Positions 1,543 through 56,437 of a DNA stretch of 64,000 nucleotides are shown here, piece after piece. Each line of letters begins with the position of its first letter. Within the stretch, counting starts at the first letter, position 1. The position numbers and the translations under genes are program-made. The stretch is from Antedon mediterranea (Eukaryota > Echinodermata > Crinoidea > Comatulida > Antedonidae). Below the pieces are notes generated by a model. It was not told where the DNA came from and ran no database searches. It saw nothing but the letters and a program-made list of their open reading frames with translations. Location of the stretch: the NCBI RefSeq assembly GCF_964355755.1, contig NC_092674.1:30430001-30494000 (forward strand), read 5' to 3'.

Positions 1543-4500
1543 ATCAACTAGACAAGATGGTGGCCCGCCTTCCTGGGTTCAGTTTGGTCAAGGTGGTGTT
1601 CAAATAGGTGTGCAGCGGATGGGAGGAGGTAGAAGAGGTATGCCAATTTTGACTCATCAACATTTTACATTTTATTCATTTCATCTAATGTCTGAAAAGT
1701 TCCTACTTTCTTTTAATAATATTTTTAATTTGTCCCAAAATATTTATGAATATAGTACTAAATCTCTGTCTACACTATCAAACTTTGTATGAAAAAAAAC
1801 CATGATGTGCCCATATGTGGACATGATGATGTCATATCACTACAATATTTGGACACATCACACTTTTTTGGTTCAAACTAGTTTGATAGTATAGACAGAG
1901 CTTAAGGTCAAAACTGAATCTAGAAGAAGAATAGTTTTATAAGATAATAAAATTAATCCACGTTTATTCATTCAGGTCTGAAAAAATCATTAGAATCGCA
2001 AAGAGAACACACAGAACTTGACAAAGAGTTTGAAGAACAGAGAAAGGCTGCGATTCAGGAACTAACTAAAAAGAAACAAGACAAGTCCTTAGGCCTAGGA
2101 AAAGTAAATATGGCGGCGGACAGGGGACGGCAGAAGGAGAACAGAAACAGTGGTCCAGTGGACCGTAATAGTAGGGAGGCTGCTACGGGCAAGTTCCAGA
2201 AGTTAAAACCTGAAGGGATATATAGAGAACTTAATTACAAGCCGAGCGTAGTAAGTACTTTTAAGTTTGTTTGTTTCATTTACAAAATAGAGCAGATATT
2301 TATAATTTAGAAAAAAAAAGATAAAAATAGGTAGTAATTACTTTAAGCATTGACCACCTGAGCAGTTGGCGACATGACAAGAATACTAAGAACTATATTT
2401 ACAAATATATATATATATATATATATAAAGAAAAAACAACATTAACATTTGAATATATGAATACCATTTCATTATAGAAATTGTTTTTAACAACCTCATC
2501 GCAATCATATCAGCATCAGAAAATATGTATATTTATTATGATAAAACTTGTAAACAAACTAGACATTATTTTGCCTGTCTTAAAATACATCAAGAACAAG
2601 ATTTGTATATCAAACATGTTGGGCCATCATTTCTAGATTGAATAGTACTGTACTATAAAAAATCTAACGTTAGAGTTCACCCTCTAGCCAACCATAGAGA
2701 TATTATATAATATCAACCAACTCTTAATATGTCCAATGATTAGAATGTACATGTACTTTAATGTCTGTGTTCTTTCTGCAAGGTTGACGACAAAGATACT
2801 AGAAAGTTAGTAGACATGGGTTTTGCCAAAGACTTAGCGACATCAGCATTACGAATCCATCATGGTAACTTTGATGCAGCTCTAGACTCATTGGTATCGG
2901 AGTCTAAGTATGATGACAAGCGGCAAGAAAGACAGTCATGGCCTGGTAGTAATAGACCAGACTATAATAGAAGAACAGGTATAATAATAATAATAATACC
3001 CTGGATTTATATAGCATTTATATAAAGTTGTAAAACCTCTAAGCGCTGAACATTATTACCCCAGTCAGTTTGTACTTAATTCAATTCTTCTCAACATCTG
3101 GACATTCATGTAAAATAAAACTTATTTCTATTTCAATAATGTTTTACCAGCTACAGTACTACCCTGTATCTTAAAATGTTTTTTCTTTTCTTTCTTATTT
3201 TTGTGGAAGTTTTGCTGACTAGATTGTATTGCCTCATTTATATTTAGAACTAGGAACACTCTTCCTTGTTGAGAACTAGGTACATAAATAAAATAAATAA
3301 AAATGTAGTCACTTTTATATAATATAAATAGTGTATTTCAATTTTAAATGTTAGCATTATTTTTTTTCTCACCAAAAAGAGGATAACCAGAGGCGAGATG
3401 ATTATCAAAGAAGAGATACTGATACTAGATGGAAAAACAATGACACAAGAGGAAGAGATAATGACACCAGAGGAAGAGATAATGATGCCAGAGGAAGAGA
3501 CAATGATCCCAGGGGAAGAGATGATCCCAGAGGAAGAGATGATACCAGAGGAAGGGACAATGATCTCAGAGGAAGAGATGATGCCAGGGGAAGGGACAAT
3601 GATAGGAGAAAGGAAAGTGATCCTCGAAAAAATGGAGATGACTTTAGGAGACGAGAAAGGGAGGATTTTAAGAAAGGTATTTAAATTTGTATTCACTGAT
3701 ATTGAATAAATAAACTTTATTAACTGATTATAGGTATATGAATTTGTTCACAATATTTTTTTGTAGGTGGAAGAAAACCACGGGTAGAGGAGGAAGAAGA
3801 AAATGGGGGTAGCAGGCCCTCTGGTCCGTCCACACTCTTTGATTTCCTGGCAACTAAACTTGGTGAGCCAGAAGGTGCAGGTAAGTAGATCATAACAAAA
3901 CATATAGCAAGTTTCTTGGCTACTGTTAGAAAAACTAGTAGAAAACTAGTTATTAACGGAGTGTAAAATTGTTTTCTCTTAATACCTACAGAGAAATCAA
4001 AGCCAACTCGTAAAATAAACTCAGACTATGAACAGCCATCTTCAGTGAAGGAAGCTGGTATAACTTTTCAGCATCGTGGGGGAGGATCAAAACGTCAAGT
4101 TGACGAAGGAAATAATTCCAGAGAGGACGATCATAAAGGGAACCAAAGAACTGGACCAAGAGATACGCGTAGTAAAAATTGGCAGGATAACCTACCGCCG
4201 CGTTTTCGGAAGGAACAATCTAATTCCCTTCCAAGTAGCGCTCGTAATTCCCGCCGTGATTATGATCATGAAGACAATCATCGTCATACAGATTATGAAA
4301 GGACTTTTAACAATGAAGGTCGTAGGTCACATCGTCAAGGAAATTATAATAGACAATCGGATGAACATTCAAATAATGATAGACAAAGGAATTATGACAG
4401 GAGGTCAAAGTTCAGGGATCAAAGGTCATATGATTCACCAAGGAAACATGATAGACCAGCGAGTTATAACGGAGAAGATTATTATGATCGTGGAACGAAT

Positions 4501-36049: not shown

Positions 36050-37590
36050 AATTCATATTCTTTATCCAAAACTAAATTGGTATAGTAAAACACAGTGCTA
36101 GCAATTTATCATATTATTAAATGTTTCATATTCTTTATCATTGTGTTTTACTCTAATCAAATTGGTATAGTAAAACACAGTGCTAAATTGCTATGTGAAT
36201 GTCATTTATCATATTTTTAAATGTTTCCTATTCTTTATCATTGTGCTTTACCATAACCAAATTGGTTATAGTAAAACACAGTGCTAAATTGCTATGTAAA
36301 TGTTATATATCATATTATTAAATTCCTATTCTTTATCATTGTGTTTTACTCTAACCAAATTGGTTATAGTAAAACACAGTGATAAATTGCTATGTAAATG
36401 TAATTTATCATATTATTAAATGTTTCCTATTCTTTATCATTGTGTTTTACTCTAACCAAATTGGTTATAGTAAAACACAGTGATAAATTGCTATGTAACT
36501 GTAATTTATCATGTTATTAAATGTTTCCTATTCTTTATCGTTGAGTTTTACTCTAATCAAATTGGTTATAGTAAAACACAGTGCTAAATTGCTATGTAAA
36601 TGTTATATATCATATTATTAAATGTTTCCTATTCTTTATCATTGTGTTTTACTCTAATCTGATTTGTTATAGTAAAACACAGTGCTAAATTGCTATGTGA
36701 ATGTCATTTATCATGTTATTAAATGTTTCCTATTCTTTATCATTGTGCTTTACTCTAACCAAATTGGTTATAGTAAAACACAGTGCTAAATTGCTATGTA
36801 AATGTCATTTATCATGTTATTAAATGTTTCTTATTCTTTATCATTGTGTTTTACTCTAACCAAATTGGTTAGAGTAAAACACAGTGATAAATTGCTATGT
36901 AAATGTAATTTATCATATTATTAAATGTTTCCTATTCTTTATCATTGTGTTTTACTCTAACCAAATTGGTTATAGTAAAACACAGTGATAAATTGCTATG
37001 TAAATGTAATTTATCATGTTATTAAATGTTTCCTATTCTTTATCGTTGTGTTTTACTCTAATCAAATTGGTTATAGTAAAACACAGTGCTAAATTGCTAT
37101 GTAAATGTTATATATCATATTATTAAATGTTTCCTATTCTTTATCATTGTGTTTTACTCTAATCTGATTGGTTATAGTAAAACACAGTGCTAAATTGCTA
37201 TGTGAATGTCATTTATCATGTTATTAAATGTTTCCTATTCTTTATCATTGTGCTTTACTCTAACCAAATTGGTTATAGTAAAACACAGTGCTAAATTGCT
37301 AAATGTCATTTATCATGTTATTAAATGTTTCTTATTCTTTATCATTGTGTTTTACTCTAACCAAATTGGTTATAGTAAAACACAGTGCTAAAAATTGCTA
37401 TGTAAATGTAATTTATCATATTATTAAATGTTTCCTATTCTTTATCATTGTGTTTTACTCTAACCAAATTGGTTATAATTTATTTAATTTCATTTCAAAA
37501 GACATTTACCTAAATTGCTATTTAAATGTCATTTATCAAATTATTAAATGTTTCCTATTATTTATCTGGTTATATAGTAAAACACTGTGC
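36050..37590 (-). repeat. ~100-bp satellite array, right arm (opposite orientation)
   Basis: About 15 units that are the reverse complement of the left array, with the same central palindrome (here often ACCAAATTGGTT). Markers such as TAATCTGATT recur at ~36650 and ~37160, again indicating block duplication (~500 bp). Confidence 0.92.
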
Positions 37591-37908: not shown

Positions 37909-40900
37909 ATGGGCGTTTTAAAGACTTGTTTGAAGACTGCAAGCTGGTTCCCCGTGTTGTTTATTTCGCTTGTAGTCGCATGGTCCTACTATGCATATGT
38001 TGTAGAGTTATGTTTTTGTAAGTATGGTATAAAAATCTATTTTTCCTAGGCCGGTATACTATAATTTACCTAGCTAGTCTAGCCTACAATTTGTGGCCTA
38101 CTGCTAGTAATTTGATGACGTTTGGGCGGCGATCACAGCAGCAGCAGTGGGGGTGACAGTACCACTGTCGATCAGACATTATTCTCACTGTCTTTTCATA
38201 TAGCCTCATTTAGATCCAAAAGATTGAATTTTTATAGAAGAAAAATTAAAAAAAATTTCTTTCCAATATGAATATTAATAATAAAGGTTTACTCATGCAT
38301 GTAAATTTCAAAATATACCAACAAAATATGCAATTAATTGATAAATTTAAATCATAAAATAGGCCTAATTTAATATAATAATAATAGATATGTTGAAAAA
38401 GGTGCAATCATGAATTTGTTAATGTTTTTTTCTGGCAATAAATGAAAATTTTAATTATATATGTCACGTGTACCAAAAATAAAAATAAATCTATCAAAAA
38501 ATGTGTTCAGTCATATAGGGCCTACATATTATTATTACTAGTTTTATAAATAATATAAAAAGAAAGAATATCTAATTGTAGGGCATCTCCACTGCCTGAG
38601 TTAATAAGGTTTATCGCAAATAGCGGACGCATACATACGTATGTTGTTTGTACTTTGTGACATTTGCTCCCAAACCCATCCCATCAAAATCAAGCTACTG
38701 TATTTATGATAAACCTTATTCAAAGTCTTCTTACTCCACTACCTTTACAAGTAAAATTATACTTAAAAATTTAGATTTTTTTTTTCAGATACACTTGCTA
38801 CAGATCCTTATAATAACATTGGACAAGCTGGTAAGTTTTCTCATTCTTAATGCGATATGCAGTACTTAGACAAGAAACATCACAATATGCATACATTTAC
38901 ATGTCTAGTCAAAATGCAAAGTAACTGTAAAAAAAGCTATTCAACATTTAACTTTAGAATTTACAGTTAAGTATACTTTAATAACATGTTATAAACACAA
39001 CAGGCACAGAACATGAATTCTAAAACCGCCCGGTCATAAATTGAAATTTAATTGATTAATTTGAAATGATATATTTTTGAAATAATAGAAAACTTGTTTA
39101 GTACTTACTTAATTTAAAATCATTTTGTATAATAAAATTGGTATGGTAATATCATTATCAATTGAGTTTATATATTTTATTAACAATTTTTCTATTATTA
39201 TTATTATTTTATAAATCAAGTTATTATACAATATTCCATCTGCTATAATTTGTTTTAAAGATGATAATAAATATTATGCATGTGATCCTGTTTTGTAAAT
39301 TTTCCAATCAATTTTCTGAATAACAATTAAATGTTAGTAAGTTGACATTTAAACGGTCTGATTGCCCGGCATCAACTAATGCAATCGAAATCTTGAATGA
39401 ACGACAGCGGCGGATAAAATTTGACATCGTCGGTTTGAAATTATTACTATGTGTATGGATAAGATGTAAATGTCATGGTTAACATGCATTGACACTTGAT
39501 ATCATATGTTATTCAAGAAAAAGGCATCATGAATAATAATCTGTAAAGATCAGGATGGGGAAAAAAGAATGCACAATGATGAACACAGTAACTATTCTAG
39601 GTCTTTTGATATCTTACTACTAATACTGTACACTACCTGTAGTACTCTCATGGTACAGTAGGATCCCCCTTATTAATTTAACTCTTTCCTGTTTACAGTT
39701 TATGTTAATAATAAACTTACTGTAGGAAAAATGCAGTCTTATTACATGTATTTAGTTTAAATTTATGTTCTTTAAAAGTTGAATTATATTTGAATTTTTG
39801 ACATACTTAGTATTTAAAACACCTTTGCTTGGTCTGTTTGTAACCTCTCGCTATGAACTAACTATTTATGGATGCCTTGACCACCCTCATATATGAAAGA
39901 ACTGTTTTAAATACAGTATCTAATTAATTAAAAGGTCACATGTTTTTTTTATGAATTCAGATGTTACAATTGTACTGTATATTATCATATTTTACTCTTG
40001 TCAACAGACGTAAATTTTTTTTTATAATGCCATGTTCTAGTAACCCACAGAAAACTTGGAATCATCTTCCTCAATCTCCCTCTTTCTGCTCACTATCAAA
40101 CTTGGACAAAAATTAATGTCCATTTATGAGCACATCACATTCTTTTGTCACATACAGATAGATAGTGTAGACAGAGCTTTAGTCTGTGGTACACAAATGT
40201 TTGTAAGTTGTATGAGTAGAATAGGGGTAGATCCGCTTGTTCTTCTTGACCACTGTTGGAAATTAAGTAGGGTTATTGTTTATGTTGTAGCAATGTTTTT
40301 ACATTGAAAATAAACTTAATTAGAAATGTTAAACCCATACAGTACTTTTTATCCTTTAAGCGTTGAATATTTTATAATTGTTTTTTATTAAAAATAAAAG
40401 TAGTTATAAATTCAATTGAGTTATAGAATTATTGTCAACATATTTTACTGGAGGCAGACAATCTGTTTCAATTCGTATTATCTATGGAACTTTATAATTT
40501 GCATAAATCAAATCATTAGGGATCAAGAATTGATGATTTAGAGTTCACATGTTGTTGGGTCAATACACGACAAATTTAGCAAAGTTGTTGAAGAAAAGTA
40601 CAATTGTATTACTTTATTTGTTCTAATTCATTCATTATATTTATTTTCCATAAAATAAAACAAAATAAAACAAGTAGATCAATGATGATTAAAATGATAT
40701 GGTACTGTATACAGTAAAATGGAAGGATGCCTTTATAGGACAAAATGTCACTTAAGCTAAGGCCACCGGTGATAAACAAATTCCACAACAAATTGAAATG
40801 AAAATTATAATAATAATGAAATTGTAGATTGAAATGATATGTTGGTGTAAGTTGTGATTGTGGACATGAATCATAAATACTTCAAGTTAACATTAACTAC

Positions 40901-43900
40901 TGTCATTTCCTAAAATCATTACGACAATTTACTTTATAATGCGAGTACGTGAAAGTGATATTTGAAATATGTATTTGGATTGTACTTGCTTGCTATTTAT
41001 ACTGGCAAACAACCAGCCTAGCAAACAAAATACCAGACATCTTATTTCTGTACCAATATCTCCAGAGACTAAATAGCTAATTATGAAACCATTTTTTTCC
41101 TTTCGTTCTTTTAATTTGATTATTATAATCAGTATTACACCGGTACTCATTAGGTCAACGAAAGAAACATTATTAATAATAATATATGATTTTGCAACCA
41201 ACAATGATTTGCTAATGAATTTACGCATAGGATAATGATATTATAATTGTGTTGTTGTTGTAGACATATTGTCATAGTATTATTAACTGCATAATCATCC
41301 CATTACAGTAATTGGGTTCATAAATGAGGAAGAATATAATTCCCTGAGATTGTGTGTGGATTGGGGTTTCTTTTGGTCAATGTAGTAAATATGTTAAAAG
41401 TGTTGTTTGTGTTACTGTGAGTTTTAAAGCTCGGTTCTATAATACTAGAGACCAACACAAGGACATAATCGCAATTTAAGTAATTTGACCAATCACTGGC
41501 GATGGATTATTTGAATTGTCGTTCATCATTAGTAAATTCTCTTACGTCTACAGTACGTTGTTGCTTTGCGTCTGTATATAGGAACCAAACTTTACTACCA
41601 GGACGCAGCGCAAGCATGTATAAATGCATGTAATTTGATCTATACAACCAAAAGTTTTTCTTTTGTGATTAATTTACATGTGTAGCATTTACAGTATGTC
41701 ATTGCATCACATTCTAGTGTGAACAAGCCTTGTCTACCTGTGTAGCATTTACAGTATGTCATTGCATCACATTCTAGTGTGAACAAGCCTTCTCTGTCTA
41801 CACTGTCAAACTAGTTTGACAAAAAAAGTGTGATGTGACCAAAATTTGGTAGTGATATCCTCAAATATGGTAGGGATATAACATCATCATGTCCATATAT
41901 GGGCACATCACACTTTTTTTAATATTGTAGACAGCGCTTTAAAGATGAATAATTGACATAGAGGTAAGAGAATCCAGAATTGGTTTGAGTTTTTATAAGT
42001 TATAATAATTTTAAAATTATTTCTTTTTTTCAGTGGTGTACCTTATATTTTATCATATATTATTGGTGATGTTTGCATGGTCATATGCCAAGACAATTTT
42101 TACGTCTGGTGGAGCGATTCCGGACGAGGTAAATAATTAATGTTTAAATTCATTCTTCTAAGCTAATAAATAGTTTATAGTCAACTACAGTATATTCAAA
42201 CGATGTGAACTTTTGTTTAGTGAAACATAAACAGTGTTTATCTATCTTGAAACACTGAAATCATTATTTTAATGTTGAGGAGTCATGTATGGCAAACCAA
42301 GTCTGTAATCAATCCAAACCATTTACCGTCAAACCATTGATTTGGTTTTTCAAAGAATGATTTGGATAGAAAAAATAGATGATATGTTATTCAATTGTTT
42401 GAATTGAGTACTTTTTGGCAGAATTGGCTCATCATAGTTCCTATTCTGTTACTACTTTCGCTGTACTTAAGCCTCTAGTTCTTATGTGTCTGTAGTTGTA
42501 AATCATTATTTATAAACTTAAGCATAGAATCTATTGTAAGTTGATGCTTTTAGACATAGGAGCATATTTACAGCAATGTAGCGGATATTTCTGAAGCAAT
42601 TTCATTAGAGACATTATTTTAAATGAGCTTAACTGTCATTTGAACTTTTTTGCAGCATTTTATGCATGTACAAATCAATGTCGTTCTACACTGGTGTTTT
42701 TTTAGTTCCACAATCTAAAAACCATTTCAACAAATACAATAAAATAATAAGAAATAACTAAGATATCAATTTTATTTGTTGCTGGTTTGAAATCCAAATC
42801 CATTGAAAATTAACATAAAGACATTTTGTCTTTATGTTATTAAAATTGCTTGTTTGCTTTAAGGTCATCTATTTTAGCTCCAAAGTAAATCCCTTTTTCT
42901 AAAAATGGATTATTCTAAAAAAAAGTCTAGAATTGATACAAATTATGTGCACATAACAAGTGTGATATTTAACTACTAAACTCTCTAATGGCTTTCTATG
43001 GATATTTTTAATAATTATTTAATTTTTTTGTCTCTGTTTTTGTAACAAATTATCATATAATTGTTACTTTCACTAGACCTACTGTATAGTATAATTACTT
43101 CTTAATAATTAATTAATAATAAAATACTAAATATTGTATTTTATAAACCATCACCACAGTCCACTAATAAGTTTGATTACATGATAATAAAACAAACTCT
43201 GAAGATAATGAGTGATTAGTCATTATCAAATTCAATATTTTGAACTAAAATCTGTATATTTATTTATATTTCGTTTTATAGTATAATATATTATATTTGT
43301 TAGTTTTTTTCTATACAATACTGTATAATTGCTGCTTCCTATTGGTTGATGATTTCTTTATTTTTTTGTTTTTTTTAAATAATAAATTGTTTTTTTGTAG
43401 TTTTACTTATCAAAGGCAGACTTGGAAAGAATTGAAGCTGAAGATAGAACAGATAGAAAAGATGAAATATTAAAGCAGATATCGCATAATCTACCTGTAC
43501 ACACTAGAACTCTAGGAGGAGGTTAGTGTTCAAGATTTGTAATGTTGTAATCATTAAACTAAAAAAAAAGGATCTTGCAGATCAGGCACATGATATATCC
43601 AGAGAGAGTTGTTATTAAATAATAACAACTCCCTATATAACAAAAGTTCTTAGGAATAGTAAACTGCTTTTTGTCCCCCCCCCCCCCACCTTCCCTCCTA
43701 CTTTTTCTATGACACCCCATTCTCTCATCAATACCCTTTCCCCTCTCAATCCTCTTTCCTCAATCAAGTTAACTGGGCAGAACAAAATAATGGGGTTGTA
43801 ATGTACATTTGGCCATTTTACCATTTTCCTGTAATACAGTACAGGGATTATACTGTAGTACAGAGAACATTATATGATAATGATTTCTACAAAAGATAGA

Positions 43901-46900
43901 GCATGCAAACACTTTCATGTTTTCTGTGATTTGATTTCAGGTATGCGTTACTGTTCTATATGTAAATCTGTTAAACCAGACAGGTGCCATCATTGTTCTG
44001 TATGTGAAAGGTAAGAATAAGCAGATATGTAATAATGCATCCCTCGTCAAGACATTGCTTTAATAATTGCCTAATAAGGACAAATTCTTCATATTCAAAT
44101 TCTTCATATTCAAATATATCCAAATTTTAATGTCTTTCATTTATTTATGCATAGTAAACCTTTTTTGAAAAGAAAAATTGAATGTTCACATGTTTCTAGG
44201 AATTGTATTATATTTTATATGGTTAATATCATTTTATTTTCTTAACTATTGGTGATATAAATGCAAAATATATGATAAAAACCATTAAACGCATGGTATT
44301 AATGCGTTTACTGATGCGTATCCTCATAAACGAGGTCTCCTATGAGAAGGGCAGTTACTAAATGCCTCGCGGCCATATGCTTGATATCTTTATCTATATG
44401 ATCATAAAGACATTTAAGATGCAGTCAAATTCAAAGATTTAAATTAACATGCTTTTAGTTCAATTATAGAAAATGTACATGCAACCATTTTGATGTAATC
44501 TTAATACCATAAGATAAAATGCAACATTTGTTGAATGAACTAATAAAATAATAAAATGTGTTATTTTTTTTTTAGTTTTAAAATACCTTTTCAATCCTTC
44601 CTACTTTAATTAATGATCTGTCTCTGTACATTCTCAATCATAATTGTTGAATCTTTGTATAATATTTTATAAATTTTACATTTAATAATTTTGTTTGCTT
44701 GAAGTAGTGAAAAAAAACATTTTTTTTTATATTCCATCCACCATGTCTCTTTATATAAAATGCTGCTTCAATGCTGTACAGCTCAATCTTGTAGTGTCGG
44801 AGGACACTCAGTCACGCTTGAATGAATCTCACGACAATTCAGTGATAACATCACAGTCATATATTAATGTTGGTACATTAGTAATCTACTACTTTAGTAA
44901 AGCTATACATTAATGGAATATATGTACATTTATTTAATGTGCTTCAGTTTTATAGGGGTTAGCTTATAAAATATCTTTTTATTTTTCTCAAGTAAAATAT
45001 AATTTTTTTTTGTGTTTGAATATTAAAAACATCTTACTGTATTTTCAAAATTATGAATATTTTTCTCCGACCTGCAGCAGGTCATGACCTGACCTGTAGG
45101 TCAAAGTCTGACCTGTATGATGCAACATGTAGGGACAGTGACTGACTTATTTTAGTGTCTATGTCGTCCCTCGACCAAATGACACTTTGTTGTTTTTGTA
45201 TATATAAGTTTTCTCATCTAATTATAAAGATTTTTTTTGGGAAAAATTCGCTTAGCTTATAAATTGTATGGATGTTTTTGTTTTGCAGGTGTATTTTGAA
45301 GATGGACCACCATTGTCCGTGGGTTAATAATTGTGTTGGATTCACCAACTATAAGTTTTTCGTTCTGTTTCTGTTTTATGCATTGACTTACTGTTTATAC
45401 GTAGCTGCCACGGTCCTCCCATATTTTATTAAATTTTGGTCGGTAAGTACAATTTGTTCTTTCACACTTGCTCTGGTACAGCTCTGGTTCCAGTTCAGTT
45501 TAGAGTACAACATTAGAGACTTTTCTGGATGTAGTTATTAGCTTCCAAATGTGGAATAAATGTATTACAAAATGTTTCATCCATTTTTTTGTTTGTTGGG
45601 TATAATAAGCCTACCATTTTGAATCAGATTTGTACTCAAGAAAATCAACTTATTCAGAATCGGTTCCTACATACATGAATAACTGATAATTGTTAATTTG
45701 CAATCTTTTCTCTTTTTGTTTTGTTTGAAATAAAGGAAATGCATAAATGATTAAGATGAAATGTTAAAAATATTGCATGTTATCTTGGACAAAATTTTAA
45801 CGCTGATATTTTATCAGAATTATTTTAAATTGAAACAAATGTTGACAGCAAAGTCACATTTAAGTGCATTTAACAATAAATGATTCATTACTATGCTTGA
45901 CAGCAGCAAAGGATTAGTATATAGTGTACATTGCAATCAGAATCTATGTACACATTTCTACATTTGGAACATTCAAAACACATTATTTTTGGTATTGAAA
46001 TATACCATGCATGATGAAAAATAGGTTAAAAATGTAATAACTTAATGTAAAAATATATGAAAATATTCAATGTGATAGACCACTTTAAATAACAATATCA
46101 ATACTTATTTTGTTTTTTTTTAATTAAGAAAATAACATTTCTTGTTGATATTGATTTGTTTTTTTGCTGTGGTTGCAACATTCAGGATGTAGGCGGTGCA
46201 GATATGAGCTTCCAAGTAATGTTCCTGTTCCTAATGGCAGCCATATTTGCGCTTAGTGTAGTCACCCTCTTAATGTACCACATCCAACTGTCCGGCATAA
46301 ACCGTTCAACACTAGGTAGGCCAGCTTTGATATTTATACTTTTAAATTTCTTTTTTCATGTTGGTTAGGGAGAGTTGGGTGATGAGTCTAGCAAGTTTCA
46401 TATTTTGTTCCTGTTTTTCGCGGCAGCCATGTTTGCCGTGAGCGTTCTTGCTCTACTAGGAATGCACACTCACCTCGTTCTCACCAACAGGAGCACCCTT
46501 GGTAAGACTTTTGGTTCAAAGGTCGTGTTAAGGCTGATAATGGTATTCCTTTATTTCACAGTGAATAGAGACTTTTCTCAATGCCTCGTAAACCTGATTC
46601 ATTCCATTCCAAATACTTCTGTTCATCTCTATTTACATTCTTACATTAAAACGAAAACAACAATTTTATTTTAATTTAACTTTTTATCATTAAGCAAAAT
46701 TAGTAAACAAAATCCAGTTTCAAAATCGTTTGAAATTGACCTTTCTTTCAAAAAAATTGTACATTTTAAATCTAATTGCTGGTGTTCTTTACTAGCACTG
46801 CTACACAGTATACTGCTCGCATAGATTGTGAGGCATCATCTAGGTACCTTAAATGTCCCTCAAATTCAACTCTATTCACCACCTTTTCTTTATTGTTATC

Positions 46901-49900
46901 CGTCTACATACGACTGAACCTTTCAGATTATAACATTATTTATTTTTTGTTTGTTGACTTTGTTTTTGTTTCCTAATAGCATGAATATATGGTTTGTATT
47001 TTTTTTACTGGTTTGGTACTGTAAACATTATTTTGTTTTTACGTTAATTGCGAGGTTGCAATATTAATAAATCTGATATTTTGGTTTTGGTTTTAGTGTT
47101 TTCTTTTTGTTATGTTTTATTTAGAAATCAATAGTCACAGTTACAAAAAACAATTTTACTATGTGTATGTTTTAATCTATTATTATTTTTATCATTATTC
47201 AATATATATTTCTTACAATTATTTGTGTTTATAAAATATAATTTTGCTTATTTTAATCAAAAGAATGTTTATACATGTACCCATCATGGTGTGTACCAAA
47301 AGTAATATTTATTACCCACTCTAAATTTTGGAGTAATTATTTCATGCCAGTCCTACTTTCACCTATCTTGTTCAAGATGGCAAAGGCAACTTACTCTGGT
47401 TCATGTTCAATATCATTGACTTAAGCTCTGTCTACACTATCAAACTTTATGTGACAAAAAAATGTGATGTGCCCATATATGGACATGATGATGTCATATC
47501 ACTACCATATTTGGGCATATCACACCAAGTTTGATAGTGTAGACAGAACTTTATGCAGTAAATGAATGCTAATCTTTATAACATACAATTGCATGTATTC
47601 AGTGGAAACATACTTATTCTTTCATTGATTAACATGGTTATAACTTACTTAGAGTCGTTCCGTGCTCCTGTCTTCCGCCACGGACCAGATAAGGAAGGAT
47701 TCAGCCGGGGAAGTTTCTGCAACAACTTCCGTGAAGTATTTGGCGATGAGAAAAAAATGTGGCCACTACCAATCTTCACAAGGTATAAATAATTTTGTTT
47801 GTGTAATCAATTTGTTTACATGTTTCCATTCTGCTTGTTTTGTGTCCTGTTCTCATTCTAATATTTTTGCAATTTGTTTAAATCTCAAAATCTCAATCTC
47901 ATTTCTCAGTCTCTCTAAACAGAACCTACTATATTTAAAATATATTTTGTTTGTAATGTTGTTACTCATTCATAATAACATTAAATTAACATTCAATATA
48001 TTTTGTTGACTAACTGTAGTAAAGGAAGCGGGTCAATGTTTCCTAACTACTACAATAATGCTCACATGTTCCCTCCGTACCGGTGAGTACAAGGGTAGCA
48101 CACATTGCACAGTTCCCTCCGTACCGGTGAGTACAAGGGTAGCACACATTGCACAGTTCCCTCCGTACCGGTGAGTACAAGGGTAGCACACATTGCACAG
48201 TTCCCTCCGTACCGGTGAGTACAAGGGTAGCACACATTGCACAGTTCCCTCCGTACCGGTGAGTACAAGGGTAGCGCACATTGCACAGTTCCCTCCGTAC
48301 CGGTGAGTACAAGGGTAGCGCACATTGCACAGTTTCCTTCGTACCGGTGAGTACAAGGGTAGCGCACCATGCACAGTTCCCTCCGTACCGGTGAGTACAA
48401 GGGTAGCGCACATTGCACAGTTCCCTCCGTACCGTTGAGTACAAGGGTAGCACACATTGCACAGTTCCCTCCGTACCGGTGAGTACAAGGGTAGCGCACC
48501 ATGCACAGTTCCCTCCGTACCGGTGAGTACAAGGGTAGCACACATTGCACAGTTCCCTCCGTACCGGTGAGTACAAGGGTAGCGCACCATGCACAGTTCC
48601 CTCCGTACCGGTGAGTACAAGGGTAGCACACATTGCACAGTTCCCTCCGTACCAGTGAGTACAAGGGTAGCGCACATTGCACAGTTCCCTCCGTACCGGT
48701 GAGTACAAGGGTAGCGCACATTGCACAGTTCCCTCCGTACCGGTGAGTACAAGGGTAGCACACATTGCACAGTTCCCTCCGTACCGGTGAGTACAAGGGT
48801 AGCACACATTGCACAGTTCCCTCCGTACCGGTGAGTACAAGGGTAGCGCACATTGCACAGTTCTCTCCGTACCGGTGAGTACAAGGGTAGCGCACATTGC
48901 ACAGTTCTCTCCGTACCGGTGAGTACAAGGGTAGCGCACATTGCACAGTTCCCTCCGTACCGGTGAGTACAAGGGTAGCACACATTGCACAGTTCCCTCC
49001 GTACCAGTGAGTACAAGGGTAGCGCACATTGCACAGTTCCCTCCGTACCGGTGAGTACAAGGGTAGCGCACATTGCACAGTTCCCTCCGTACCGGTGAGT
49101 ACAAGGGTAGCACACATTGCACAGTTCCCTCCGTACCGGTGAGTACAAGGGTAGCGCACATTGCACAGTTCCCTCCGTACCGGTGAGTACAAGGGTAGCA
49201 CACATTGCACAGTTCCCTCCGTACCGGTGAGTACAAGGGTAGCGCACATTGCACAGTTCCCTCCATACCGGTGAGTACAAGGGTAGCACACATTGCACCG
49301 GTGGTGTCGCCCCAAAAACATTAAATTGTAATGGCAATGTAGTAGCTTAGTGGTTAACATGTCTAAATCTGTATCTACACTAGCAAACTAGTTTGAGTTG
49401 CCCAAATATGGTAGTAATCATCACCATGGGCACATAACATTTTTTTGTTACATAAAGTTTGATAGTGTAGACAGAGCTTCGTATAGTATAGTACAAGGAA
49501 TTTTATTTTATACCATATATTAATGTGGATAATTCTTTTTCTTCCGTTATAACTGGGCTAAGTTGCACCCAGGTGAGGATGACACACATATAGCAACTTT
49601 CAAAGGATTCCTTGTAATCGCACAGGTGCCACCAAATGGAACTCATTCATCATTCCACAATGACAATAATGAACCAAATATTAATGTGAACTACCTCAGT
49701 GGCTCCGGTCAAGTTTGACCTACATACCAAATCTCATTTTATCTAAATCCTAAACTAATATATTTACTTTTATTACATCTAATGTGTGTCTTTTCTTTTT
49801 AGTACCATGTCATGGTTTTTTGGGGAAAAGTAGTTAAAATCAAAAAAGTAGAAAACATTCAATAGTTTTATCAACCATGATTTATTATTAAAATGAAAAA

Positions 49901-52900
49901 TTAACAATGTTTTTATCTTTTCAGCAAAGGGGATGGCATACGCTACCCTATACAAGCTAGAGATGAAGATTCTGACCGCCTTCTGGATGGTCCACCTGAA
50001 GATGACCTTGAAAGTGAGATGACCAGTGGAGCGGAAGATTCTAAAAATCAAGGTATGAGGAAATAAACAATTTTTACTATTACAAGTGTTTCTACTTTGA
50101 TACAATAATAGCATTTAAGGTAAGAATGTCAGCTAATGGATTTCTGATTTTAAATTTGTGAAGACTGCCCTCATCTCTAAATATCCAACGAGTGTCTTCG
50201 ATTAGACTATCATAACTTTGTTGCAGTTTTCTTTGCTCTTGTTGCTGTTTTCATGTTGTTTTCATTGTGTTTTTGTAGATTGTATACTTTACTGTACACC
50301 ACATAAACGTTCTATGTTGCTATTATCTTCTGGATACTACCATACCATTAGAATCTGCTTTTTAACACATTTCAAAATATCTTTTTATTTCCATAACATA
50401 AGTTAAACTTTTTCCATGGACACTTGCATAAACAACCCATTCAAGACACCAATTATGCTTGTCTAAAGCTCTGGTTACACCATCAAACTTTATGTGACAA
50501 AAAAATGTGATGTGCCCAAATATGGAAGTGATATGCGCAAATATGGTAGTGCTATGACCATCATGTCCATATATGGGCACATCACATTTTTTTGTCAAAT
50601 AAAGTTCGATAGTGTAGACAGAGCTTTAGTTTACAATAAATGGGCAAAACTGTTACCTACTAACTTTTTCCAAAGATACTGTCACAACCAGTAGTGGATC
50701 CAGGATTGTTTTTAAAAAGGGAGCACTAACACGTATTAATAGTCATAAATATCAAAAAGTATTTTATAATTTCAAAAGGGGTAGCACACCCCTTCCGAGA
50801 TCTGCCCCAGAAAACTAAAACTCATTGTTGCTTTCTGCATTGTTGATAATTTTCTTTGCTTTTTGTTTAGGAAAAGGAAACTTGCATGCAAGCATTCAGG
50901 AGAGTGTCAACTACAGTACAATTATCGAATCAGATAAAGCCCCTCTAAGAGAAGTGGCTCAGCCAAGTAGGATATAATCTTCTTCCTGAGTGGCTAGTTG
51001 ACTTTTAGCTCCGCCCACTTTTAGCTTAGCACCATCAATCAGCTTTTTCCTTTTATATATTATGTTTGTGAATTGTTGTCAGGATTTGATCATGTTTTTA
51101 ACTTTGCTCTTTTCAAAGCTCCATACTTTTAATCTATGTATAACATTTGCTAATGTTATTTTAAGCAAACATTTTTTAATGCATTCACATCATCAAATTC
51201 TTGACTGAAATTAAAACGTTTTGTTGCAAAAAGCATTGAAGCATGTTATGTTTACATTTTGTGGGATTCTTTAGTTGTGTTTTTTCTATCTCACTGTATT
51301 TTAATGTTTCTTCTTTTGCAAACCTTTTGTGAATATGTGTACACCATGTAATATCTTAACACATTTGATGAACTTTCACCTACAGTATTCAAACAATGTT
51401 CCTCACTTTCTAAAGCTATGTCTACACTATCAAACTTTATGTGACAAAAAAATGTGATGTGCCCATATATGGACATGGTTGTGATATATCACTACCATAT
51501 TTGGACACATCACACTTTTTTTGTCAAACTAGTTTGATAGTGTAGACAGAGCTTTATGGTATATATATTTTTATTGTAGTATTGTGGCTTAAGCAGCCTT
51601 TCATGTTGTAGAGAAAATCATTTTTTAAACATTTTTCTTTTTAATGTTTTATACCTTTAAAGTTTATAGTTTATAACTCACTACACATATCAATAACTGA
51701 TGGCAACTTATTACTATTGAATCTACATCTTAATTTTTGTACTAACACTTTATAACACTTTATTCTTAATTCTCTTTCCTTTATTTCACTTATATGTTAG
51801 ACATGCATATTTTTTACCATAAATATCATGGTACTAGTAGCAATATATAATACAGTGGAAACGCTATTAAGGGGAGACCTTCAGGACCAACAAAATGCCC
51901 TCTTAATAGGAGTTTGCTGTAATGTTAAAACATACATTGCCATTTGTTCATTTTACAAGTGTCCTCTTAATAGGAGTTTGCTGTAATGTTAAAACATACA
52001 TTGCCATTTGTTCATTTTACAAGTGCCCTCTTAATAGGAGTTTGCTGTAATGTTAAAACATACATTGCCCTTTGTTCATTTTACAAGTGCCCTCTTAATA
52101 GGAGTTTGCTGTAATGTTAAAACATACATTGCCATTTGTTCATTTTACAAGTGTCCTCTTAATAAGAGTGTCCCCTGTTTAAGAGTTGGCCATGGTATTA
52201 AAACATATATTGCCCCTTGTTCATTTCACACAGTGTCCTCTTAAAAGCATTGTCCCCTCAATAACAGTGTCCTCTTAAAAGCTTTGTCCCCTCAATAACA
52301 GTGTCCTCTTAAAAGCATTGTCCCCTCAATAACAGTGTCCTCTTAAAAGCATTGTCCCCTCAATAACAGTGTCCTCTTAAAAGCATTGTCCCCTCAATAA
52401 CAGTGTCCTCTTAAAAGCATTGTCCCCTCAATAACAGTGTCCTCTTAAAAGCATTGTCCCCTCAATAACAGTGTCCTCTTAAAAGCATTGTCCCCTCAAT
52501 AACAGTGTCCTCTTAAAAGCATTGTCCCCTCAATAACAGTGTCCTCTTAAAAGCATTGTCCCCTCAATAACAGTGTCCTCTTAAAAGCATTGTCCCCTCA
52601 ATAACAGTGTCCTCTTAAAAGCATTGTCCCCTCAATAACAGTTTCCTCTTAAAAGCATTGTCCCCTCAATAACAGTGTCCTCTTAAAAGCATTGTCCCCT
52701 CAATAACAGTGTCCGAAAGGAGAGATTGTACTATATTATACCTTAAAGGAAGACCAACACACAATTCTCTGACTGTACCAAATTAAAAGCAAATTTTTAG
52801 AATGTTATTGCCATTTTTGTGTTGATAACATTCCAAATTTATTTTAATCTTTTTTCAGTGCATATTAAAATATTTTTTAATTAACTAATTTGTTTTTGTT

Positions 52901-52944
52901 TTTCAGGTGGAGCCATAAATTATTCTGTTGAAAATGAACAGTAA
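37909..52944 (+). CDS. ZDHHC20: ZDHHC2/15/20-type palmitoyltransferase
   Basis: Exons: 37909-38017, 38789-38830, 42034-42128, 43401-43521, 43941-44010, 45289-45442, then 46186-46315 or 46369-46501, 47653-47782, 49925-50052, 50871-50966, 52907-52944 (stop). The total is 1113 or 1116 nt, i.e. 370 or 371 aa. It transfers palmitate to protein cysteines at membranes. TM1 about 13-33, TM2 about 50-70, the zinc-binding Cys-rich domain from Cys127 ([15 protein letters not shown]), the catalytic DHHC at 152-155, TM3 about 169-190, TM4 encoded by the alternative exon. After it come STLE (TTxE-like motif), ESFRAPVF, and NNFREVFG (PaCCT-like motif). The [16 protein letters not shown] junction matches ZDHHC2/15/20; the exact orthologue is uncertain. 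If the 50966 donor is not used, a stop at 50975-50977 gives a shorter C-terminus. Confidence 0.93.
38605..38718. mobile_element. MITE family C, copy 1
   Basis: AAGGTTTATCGCAAATAGCG at the left; TTTATGATAAACCTT at the right. Inside, TTTGCTCCCAAACCCATCCC. A second copy lies at 58369-58556. Confidence 0.75.
40090..40182. mobile_element. MITE family A, copy 6 (partial)
   Basis: ACTATCAAACTTGG at the left and ATAGTGTAGACAGAGCTTT at the right, with a shortened core. Confidence 0.75.
41430..41625. mobile_element. MITE family B, diverged copy
   Basis: Weak match to the family ends (AGCTCGGTTCTATAATACTA; AGGAACCAAACTTTAC) with the internal TTGACCAATCAC and TGCTTTGCGTC shared with other copies. Confidence 0.45.
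41682..41797. repeat. 58-bp tandem duplication
   Basis: TGTGTAGCATTTACAGTATG through GAACAAGCCT occurs twice back to back, almost without change, so the duplication is recent. Confidence 0.9.
41790..41942. mobile_element. MITE family A, copy 7
   Basis: TCTCTGTCTACACTGTCAAA at the left, TATTGTAGACAGCGCTTTA at the right; two TATGGTAG(T/G)GATAT units inside. Confidence 0.85.
43675..43687. repeat. Poly-C tract
   Basis: Thirteen consecutive C residues followed by a C/T-rich stretch, in an intron. Confidence 0.85.
46186..46315 (+). other. ZDHHC20: Alternative exon 7a of the palmitoyltransferase (TM4 version A)
   Basis: 130-nt exon, phase 0 in and phase 1 out, with acceptor ACATTCAG and donor GTAGGC. 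It encodes 43 residues with the membrane helix [20 protein letters not shown] and ends NRSTL. It is homologous to exon 7b next door but clearly diverged, notably MYHIQLSGI in the exit loop. Confidence 0.85.
46369..46501 (+). other. ZDHHC20: Alternative exon 7b of the palmitoyltransferase (TM4 version B)
   Basis: 133-nt exon with the same phases as 7a, acceptor GTTGGTTAG and donor GTAAGA. It encodes [20 protein letters not shown] and ends NRSTL. It is closer than 7a to the usual family sequence ([13 protein letters not shown]). Only 53 nt separate 7a and 7b. Confidence 0.88.
47422..47554. mobile_element. MITE family A, copy 8
   Basis: AAGCTCTGTCTACACTATCA to AGTTTGATAGTGTAGACAGA, core CCCATATATGGACATGATGA. 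It is close to the family consensus. Confidence 0.9.
48020..48082 (+). other. ZDHHC20: Possible 63-nt cassette exon 9a
   Basis: Between acceptor TAACTGTAG and donor GTGAGT lies an open, phase-2/phase-2 exon encoding [21 protein letters not shown]-like residues. Its KGSGSMFP start parallels KGDGIRYP of exon 9b, suggesting an old exon duplication. Inclusion adds 21 residues without changing frame. Confidence 0.6.
48069..49297. repeat. ZDHHC20: 44-bp minisatellite made of an exon end plus its 5' splice site
   Basis: About 28 copies of a 44-bp unit: 14 bases identical to the end of exon 9a (TTCCCTCCGTACCG), then GTGAGTACAAGGGTAGC, then a spacer ending TTGCACAG. Nearly every copy keeps the donor GTGAGT. 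One copy near 48434 has TTGAGT instead, and two have ACCA before it. The array lies in the intron between exons 9a and 9b. Confidence 0.95.
49367..49482. mobile_element. MITE family A, copy 9
   Basis: ATCTGTATCTACACTAGCAA at the left and TTTGATAGTGTAGACAGAGC at the right; the core is shortened. Confidence 0.85.
49540..49718 (+). other. Unexplained open frame, weakly Reeler-like
   Basis: An open frame ends at TGA 49716-49718 and contains [20 protein letters not shown] and a polar tail. F-K-G-F-L-x-x-A is reminiscent of Reeler-domain proteins. Its phase fits neither exon 8 nor exon 9a of the surrounding gene, so it is not an obvious exon of it. It could be an exon fossil or chance. Confidence 0.25.
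50465..50630. mobile_element. MITE family A, copy 10
   Basis: AAAGCTCTGGTTACACCATC at the left, CGATAGTGTAGACAGAGCTT at the right; internal CCATATATGGGCACATCACA. Confidence 0.88.
50690..50815. mobile_element. Probable GATCCAGG-end element, second copy
   Basis: GTAGTGGATCCAGGATTG at the left and CTTCCGAGATCTGCCCC at the right, like 6595-6840. Located in an intron just before exon 10. Confidence 0.5.
51412..51556. mobile_element. MITE family A, copy 11
   Basis: AAAGCTATGTCTACACTATC to TTTGATAGTGTAGACAGAGC; core GTGCCCATATATGGACATGG and ACTACCATATTTGGACACAT. Confidence 0.9.
51895..52152. repeat. 64-bp tandem repeat (x4) in a family-D element
   Basis: Four units containing CCTCTTAATAGGAGTTTGCT, AATGTTAAAACATACATTGC and TTTGTTCATTTTACAAGT, differing by single bases. 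The flank at 51853 (ACAGTGGAAACGCTATTAAG) looks like the element's left end. Confidence 0.9.
52231..52713. repeat. 34-bp minisatellite (x14) in the same family-D element
   Basis: About 14 nearly identical copies of a unit containing GTCCTCTTAAAAGCATTGTC and CCCTCAATAACA. It follows the 64-bp array within one intron of the palmitoyltransferase gene and ends at GTCCGAAAGGAGAGATTGTA, the probable right end of the element. Confidence 0.93.
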
Positions 52945-53928: not shown

Positions 53929-54052
53929 AGCTCTGTCTACACTATCAAAAAAGTGTGATGTGCTCAAATATGGTAGTAATATAATTTTATCGTATCCATA
54001 TATGGGCACATTTGTTTGTCACAAAGTTTGATAGTGTGGACAGAGCTTTAAG
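53929..54052. mobile_element. MITE family A, copy 12
   Basis: AAGCTCTGTCTACACTATCA at the left, TTTGATAGTGTGGACAGAGC at the right; core shortened. Confidence 0.87.
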
Positions 54053-55209: not shown

Positions 55210-55374
55210 AAAGCCTTGTCTAAAACTATCAGACTTTATGTGACAAAAAAATGTGATGTGCTCATTTATGGACATGGTGGTGTCATCACTACCACATTTG
55301 GTCATATCACTACCATATTTGGGCACATCACACTTTTTTTGTCAAACTAGGTTGATAGTGTAGATAGAGCTTAA
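55210..55374. mobile_element. MITE family A, copy 13
   Basis: AAAGCCTTGTCTAAAACTATC at the left (diverged), GATAGTGTAGATAGAGCTTA at the right; core CATTTATGGACATGGTGGTG. Confidence 0.83.
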
Positions 55375-56437
55375 AGCACGACACTGTATATTGATATGAT
55401 GTAAAGCGTTTTAAAATATTTAAAAGTTTATCATTATTTACATTTATAAAATGTGTTGACAATTTACAGGCTTCTTGAAAATTGTTTTTGAGACGGAAAA
55501 TCTCTTATAAAAGATAACGCCCATTTAATTGCAGTTATGAGAGGCCATCGGGGCCAAAATGATGATTCAAAAGTTGCGAAAAGCAGACGATATGGAGGCC
55601 TACCTTGTTTTGGATAAAAAACAAAATACGGATTTTTTGGACGTGAGATCAGTTTGAAGTACATCATTATTCACTTATAAAAGGTAAGTAGAACTTTATT
55701 ACCTTATTTTTTAATTGCCTAGGCATCTAATTACTCGTTTAAGATTACAATTTTCCGCTAGGCTAGGCCTGGTCCAAAAGTTGAGATAGGCTAAGTCGCC
55801 TACCTAGTTCAAGACCAGAGTCTGAGCGGCCGCGGTGATGATTCTTAATCGTAATGACCGGGCGGGCCTGAAAATAATTTCCTAATTCAATCTTTGTTTA
55901 GATTATTTTGTTTAATACGTAATTAAGATTGATTATGTTAATTTATTGCAATACATCATGTCCTGGATGAATACAAATATAGGCCTACCAAGCCAAGCCT
56001 TTTCAAGTTATGATGAATAGGCCTATTTTTGTTGTCGTCGTAAATTGTGATATTCAGCACTGTTGAGTTTTCTAAGATTTGCATATTACCACTGCAAACA
56101 TGATCAGGACAAATGCTGGATGTTTTAAATGAAATATTTGATTTGTTTGTTTTATGAAGTTAGTCAGCGCATTATTATTTAATGTTTAATGTTTTAGGTA
56201 AGAAATAAACATGTTCATATAGACTGACCTAGTAATTTGTTGAATAGGCCACTTGAGCCTTGCAGAAACTAAAGAAGAAATGAACTGATTTTATGTTTTG
56301 CGTCCCGTTTTTATTAGATAGCTTCTTGCTTATTTTATTCGTATCTCCATCCATGTCCACAACATTGTTTCAGTAATTTGTCATTGAATGTATAGTCATG
56401 ATGTATCACATGTGTCATACTAAAAATATCTTCTAAA

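Follow-up and report, generated by a model that had tools for sequence, protein, structure and literature searches.

Two tandem homologous exons for the fourth transmembrane helix of a crinoid DHHC palmitoyltransferase, probably spliced one at a time

A DHHC-type palmitoyltransferase gene of the crinoid Antedon mediterranea carries two adjacent, homologous versions of the exon encoding its fourth transmembrane helix (TM4), here called exons 7a and 7b, and the pair is quite likely to represent an old tandem duplication whose copies are spliced one at a time. The anatomy of the pair is well supported, the mode of splicing is deduced from reading frame and spacing, and the functional consequence is put forward as a candidate.

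A tandem exon pair in a DHHC20/DHHC15-type gene

The gene lies within the 64,000-nucleotide stretch of DNA that was analyzed (hereafter, the window; Table 1). Our model, which covers only the coding exons from ATG to stop, contains 12 exon positions filled by 13 exons, with a single open frame and AG/GT dinucleotides at every internal border, and yields a product of 391 amino acids via 7a or 392 via 7b. This product is a predicted palmitoyltransferase of the DHHC20/DHHC15 type: human DHHC20 (6bml) was matched with E-values of 8.4e-114 (7b form) and 4.8e-108 (7a form), in an alignment extending to residue 294 and covering the C-terminal domain, while the Pfam DHHC family (PF01529) scored 129.4 and 124.3 bits, respectively, for a cut-off of 28.7. 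Homology to human DHHC20 and to DHHC15 runs the full length, through the DHHC domain, TM4, and the C-terminal domain, with invariant equivalents of Ser29, Tyr181, and Val185. TM4 was assigned by alignment to the solved human DHHC20 structure and to chain 6bms, which we take to be zebrafish DHHC15. Following human DHHC20 numbering, which Cys156 and Trp158 confirmed in the alignment, exon 7 corresponds to residues 199-242, i.e., the lumenal loop, TM4 (~208-235), and the stretch up to STLE, a TTxE-like motif found after TM4 in both isoforms. A preliminary description of this DNA had assigned both exons to the fourth membrane helix of a DHHC enzyme, and the alignments to human DHHC20 and 6bms bear this out.

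Table 1 Coordinates of the gene and of the exon pair with its splicing partners (positions within the window).
Feature	Position	Strand	Description
DHHC20/DHHC15-type palmitoyltransferase gene	37909..52944	+	Hand-built model, ATG to stop
Exon 6	45289..45442	+	DHHC motif and TM3; phase 0 at end; upstream partner of 7a/7b
Exon 7a	46186..46315	+	Lumenal loop, TM4, start of STLE, version a; 130 nt
Spacer	46316..46368	+	53 nt; 7a donor (TAG/GTAGGC) and 7b acceptor
Exon 7b	46369..46501	+	Lumenal loop, TM4, start of STLE, version b; 133 nt
Exon 8	47653..47782	+	Phase 1 entry; completes Glu of STLE; downstream partner of 7a/7b

Exons 7a and 7b each have a separate AG acceptor and GT donor, and both are entered in phase 0 and left in phase 1, so that the coordinates, lengths, phases, spacing, and splice borders first reported for the tandem pair all held. 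The encoded segments are identical at 20 of 43 residues, reach a BLOSUM62 score of 0.43 of the self-score, and differ in length by one residue. Both similarity and length difference fall within the defaults for predicting mutually exclusive exons given in an excerpt of PMC3228551 (score ≥15%, length difference ≤20 amino acids), where just 90 of 16180 non-exclusive exons of the fly X chromosome are said to have such features. The two exons also stand out in base composition, with a GC content of 0.46 (7a) and 0.49 (7b) vs 0.27-0.29 in intron 6, the spacer, and intron 7. A search of all 354 Mb of the assembly (18 contigs) at E ≤ 10 returned two matches per exon, namely the exon itself and the other copy (cross-match E-values of 8.2e-4 and 3.5e-4); this search scores only the best candidates, and stretches of N cannot match. 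None of 1000 shuffles of 7b reached the nucleotide alignment score of the pair, and the assembly-wide searches, the shuffles, and the neutral simulations described below together rule out chance resemblance. No further exon copies in the flanking introns were found among the matches listed by tblastn against the 64-kb window. In the prokaryote collection, the only relative was one distant DHHC protein on a contaminant contig (L009), and none was found in the viral collection.

Age and maintenance of the two copies

Next, we evaluated how long the two copies have been maintained. By the Nei-Gojobori method, 7a and 7b differ at a pS of 0.78, i.e., saturation, and a pN of 0.36, with differences at 16, 13, and 30 of the 43 first, second, and third codon positions, respectively. 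Since synonymous sites are saturated while pN is 0.36, both exons appear to have been long maintained as coding sequence. Neutral simulations (n = 3000) retained 11.2 identities on average and 19 at most, and none reached the 20 of 43 observed. Taken together, the pair looks like an old tandem exon duplication with a coding function long maintained in both copies. A recent duplication that would have left homology in the flanks was rejected, as no such homology was found (shuffle P of 0.39 and 0.34).

These comparisons bear on whether 7a might be a relic, i.e., an exon once used and now silent or dying, with all splicing proceeding through 7b. Exon 7b is the one nearer to human DHHC20 (24/44 identities, compared to 17/43 for 7a) and scores higher in both the Pfam and PDB searches, and several tests on 7a alone fail to reject drift: its conservatism by BLOSUM was not significant relative to neutral drift from 7b (P 0.14-0.20), its hydropathy was borderline (P 0.045-0.07), a TM4 free of charged residues had a P of 0.08, and an open frame had a P of 0.31 under unconstrained drift. 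A recent loss of 7a use would, in addition, be invisible to such tests. However, 7a retains its acceptor, donor, phase, and open frame, and continuous drift since the duplication fits poorly: with 7a neutral, 7b limited to silent changes, and equal time on each branch, at most 0.02 of 1500 runs were compatible with the data under any of 8 settings. Exon 7a is also far closer to human DHHC20 than expected from a 7b sequence drifted to the same 23 differences, this proximity being attained in 0/2000 and 1/2000 runs. We thus regard a relic status of 7a as improbable, and it is very likely that both exons are used.

One exon at a time: reading frame and spacing

The reading frame runs to the common stop when exactly one of the two exons is included. 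Joining 7a to 7b would lead to a stop after 244 residues with 5 exon junctions downstream, in agreement with the initial expectation that double inclusion breaks the frame; skipping both would lead to a stop after 293 residues with 2 junctions downstream; and retention of the spacer would lead to a stop after 257 residues, again with 5 junctions downstream, the stop in this last case being the TAG that belongs to the 7b acceptor. Since each of these three products would have at least two junctions beyond its premature stop, decay would be expected to remove them all. Among human mutually exclusive clusters, 377/629 (60%) have such a frame trap and 57/629 (9%) have potential for steric interference, according to an excerpt of PMC5740500, which also argues that a transmembrane helix is difficult as a cassette exon because its skipping would flip the topology.

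The spacer provides a second, putatively steric, barrier. Candidate branch points of the TNA type are located at +15, +21, +29, +30, and +43 from the 7a donor, another at +52 being the acceptor itself, and every possible branch point in the spacer is, by geometry, closer to the 7a donor than the limit of ~50 nt between donor and branch point given in excerpts of PMC7969005 and PMC5740500. Any branch point serving 7b would hence be at most ~43 nt from the 7a donor, a distance that would not allow 7a to be spliced to 7b. As a yardstick for intron size in this assembly, we used adjacent exon matches in chaperonin genes (45 pairs) and proteasome genes (9 pairs), with intron lengths estimated from profile positions and based on 69/74 and 33/33 rows; five rows had been set aside, two because they were lone matches and three because they repeated the first profile positions. 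The 53-nt spacer compares to at least 96 nt in 54/54 pairs, the next smallest values being 109, 114, and 117 nt, and the 96-nt value probably reflects no intron at all because both pieces share one stop-free open frame. Among 31 matches containing a stop, 4 seemed to have an intron within them, with sizes of 117 to 210 nt. Since the remaining introns of the DHHC gene measure 237 to 3203 nt, the spacer is below all yardstick sizes as well as the gene's other introns, and is therefore unusual here. This supports the earlier suggestion that it is too short for ordinary splicing, and makes efficient joining of 7a to 7b unlikely.

The same observations weigh on another reading, in which the pair would be an on/off switch with 7b as the sole productive form, and the inclusion of both exons, or of neither, would be exploited to generate decayed transcripts and lower the amount of enzyme. 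That all three wrong products stop early, each with at least 2 junctions downstream, is what such a switch would use, but it leaves the coding and phase-correct state of 7a unexplained and calls for efficient 7a-7b joining across an intron smaller than any estimated here, so that we consider it very improbable. Incompatibility between U2- and U12-type splice sites can be set aside as the mechanism, since by inspection both donors are GT and the acceptors are ordinary AG. With regard to regulation, the 7a donor and the 7b donor each agree with the consensus at 6/9 positions, the same as the constitutive donors of exons 1, 8, and 11, and thus nothing marks them as regulated. A search for docking and selector RNA pairing found inverted repeats in introns 6-7 with no obvious competing pair, and nothing convincing. 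The region 46100-46560, which includes both exons, folds more stably than shuffled sequences (z of -2.6, 1/100 as stable), a value from one sequence spanning coding exons; in the fold model, also derived from one sequence only, the 7b acceptor (46360-46365) pairs with 46483-46488 at the end of exon 7b. Overall, frame trap and short spacer make the probable mutual exclusivity originally proposed the best reading of the sequence, and the use of 7a and 7b is probably essentially exclusive.

This arrangement resembles exons 4a and 4b of vertebrate OGDH, which are likewise tandem homologous exons with the same kind of barrier; there, in a different enzyme, experiments placed the branch points at 25-41 nt, whereas here they are predicted within a spacer of 53 nt in total. 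It also resembles the 236 annotated tandem duplicated exon substitutions in human, i.e., adjacent homologous exons whose isoforms are alike save for one region, most of which are ancient and which are enriched in membrane proteins, as described in an excerpt of PMC9741552. No report of exclusive exons, for TM4 or otherwise, in a DHHC gene was found among the literature matches listed, mostly titles and abstracts, and neither PMC5740500 nor PMC9741552 contains "ZDHHC" in its main text. For Zdhhc20, the portion of PMC11283458 consulted mentions an event of a different type, a neural-regulated exon, without specifying which.

Candidate consequences of the swap for the enzyme

Substrate choice by DHHC enzymes is poorly understood. 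The differences between the 7a and 7b products fall in the lumenal TM3-TM4 loop, on TM4, mainly its outward face, and in the short stretch before STLE. The two would share the same catalytic core, the STLE motif, and the cavity ceiling at positions 29, 181, 185, 213, and 217. In human DHHC20, this ceiling is formed by Ser29, Tyr181, Val185, Leu213, Ser217, and sometimes Val216 (excerpts of PMC9006032, PMC9105814, and PMC9739150). The equivalents of Ser29, Tyr181, and Val185 are encoded by constant exons and are the same as in human, and positions 213 (Leu) and 217 (Ala), as well as STLE, are identical in 7a and 7b; only position 216, a minor ceiling contact, is changed (Met in 7a, Ala in 7b). 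The preliminary description had proposed that the swap alters residues in contact with the acyl chain, which is unsupported as stated. Its view that the swap changes TM4 and the stretch before STLE is upheld, although the cavity-facing side is largely kept and the differences favor the far face. On an ideal 100-degree helix, the 14 TM4 positions shared by 7a and 7b cluster near the 213/217 axis, while the 14 differing positions point ~168 degrees away; the projection on this axis gave a permutation P of 0.0098, 0.028 after removal of 213 and 217, and 0.05 when no axis was chosen, in a test that is post hoc, i.e., made after the alignment was seen. A large change of the cavity as the main effect is accordingly less likely, since the ceiling positions are shared and the differences favor the opposite face of TM4.

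We also considered that the exons may be used one at a time with the swap tuning the length of the acyl chain. In simulations of human DHHC20, position 216 occasionally touches the tip of the acyl chain (excerpt of PMC9739150), and ACSL1 and ACSL6 use exclusive exons to exchange a fatty-acid gate (excerpt of PMC1543647), yet the ceiling positions 29, 181, 185, 213, and 217 are alike in both isoforms, alanine at 217 alone left the simulated cavity no longer (excerpt of PMC9105814), and the differing residues favor the far face of TM4. Such tuning is unlikely as the main role of the swap, and a chain-length effect via position 216 would be small at most. In its subject the pair recalls ACSL6/ACSL1, where homologous exclusive exons swap a motif in an enzyme acting on long acyl chains; the ACSL motif, however, is a 26-residue gate in a soluble domain, with Phe and Tyr exchanged where the substrate enters (same excerpt of PMC1543647), whereas the crinoid pair, with its predicted exclusivity, exchanges a transmembrane helix that is largely unchanged on the side facing the acyl chain.

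Because the differences favor the far face of TM4 while the ceiling is kept, we rank an effect on substrate docking or membrane environment above a change of chain length, and suggest, tentatively, that the swap would act mainly on docking or on membrane partitioning. Two positions on the differing face, 226 and 230, are Thr and Tyr in 7a, and Ala and Met in 7b. According to an excerpt of PMC9105814 that does not itemize the residues concerned, a hydrophilic ridge of TM4 in human DHHC20 was put forward as a place where substrates dock. More tentatively still, this one gene might encode two enzymes with the same cavity and core and with different outward TM4 faces and lumenal loops, splicing then selecting the substrates or the membrane served. 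If so, the palmitoyltransferase would join the enzymes tuned by exclusive exons, the DHHC family would include a splice-controlled docking surface, and the two isoforms, with a shared core and an altered outer TM4, would offer a natural test of the TM4-ridge docking idea.

Several other features of the gene and the window were recorded. A tandem repeat at 36103-37477 (101-nt unit, 13.7 copies) ends ~430 nt 5' of the DHHC gene's start codon. Intron 7 includes an inverted-repeat element at 47423-47551 with 32-nt arms that are 91% complementary, and look-alikes were seen by eye at ~50470-50628, 51415-51555, 53930-54050, and 55210-55375; together these are like a family of short terminal-inverted-repeat transposons. 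At 1560-3900, exons of a second gene on the + strand read VDDKDTRKLVDMGFAKDLATSALRIHHGNFDAALDSLV, which resembles the UBA domain of TDRD3. A minisatellite at 48063-49298 (44-nt unit, ~28 copies) begins within exon 9, and its copies reproduce the final bases of that exon together with the 5' splice site, GTGAGTACAAGGG occurring 27 times. Use of a later copy as the donor would give an in-frame TGA right after ...MFPPYR, and the resulting product would lose the C-terminal tail and keep the catalytic domain. Elsewhere in the assembly (C4:29707405-29707764), the first positions of the chaperonin family are matched four times in tandem at intervals of ~90-100 nt, which may be a further case of a minisatellite with a captured exon.
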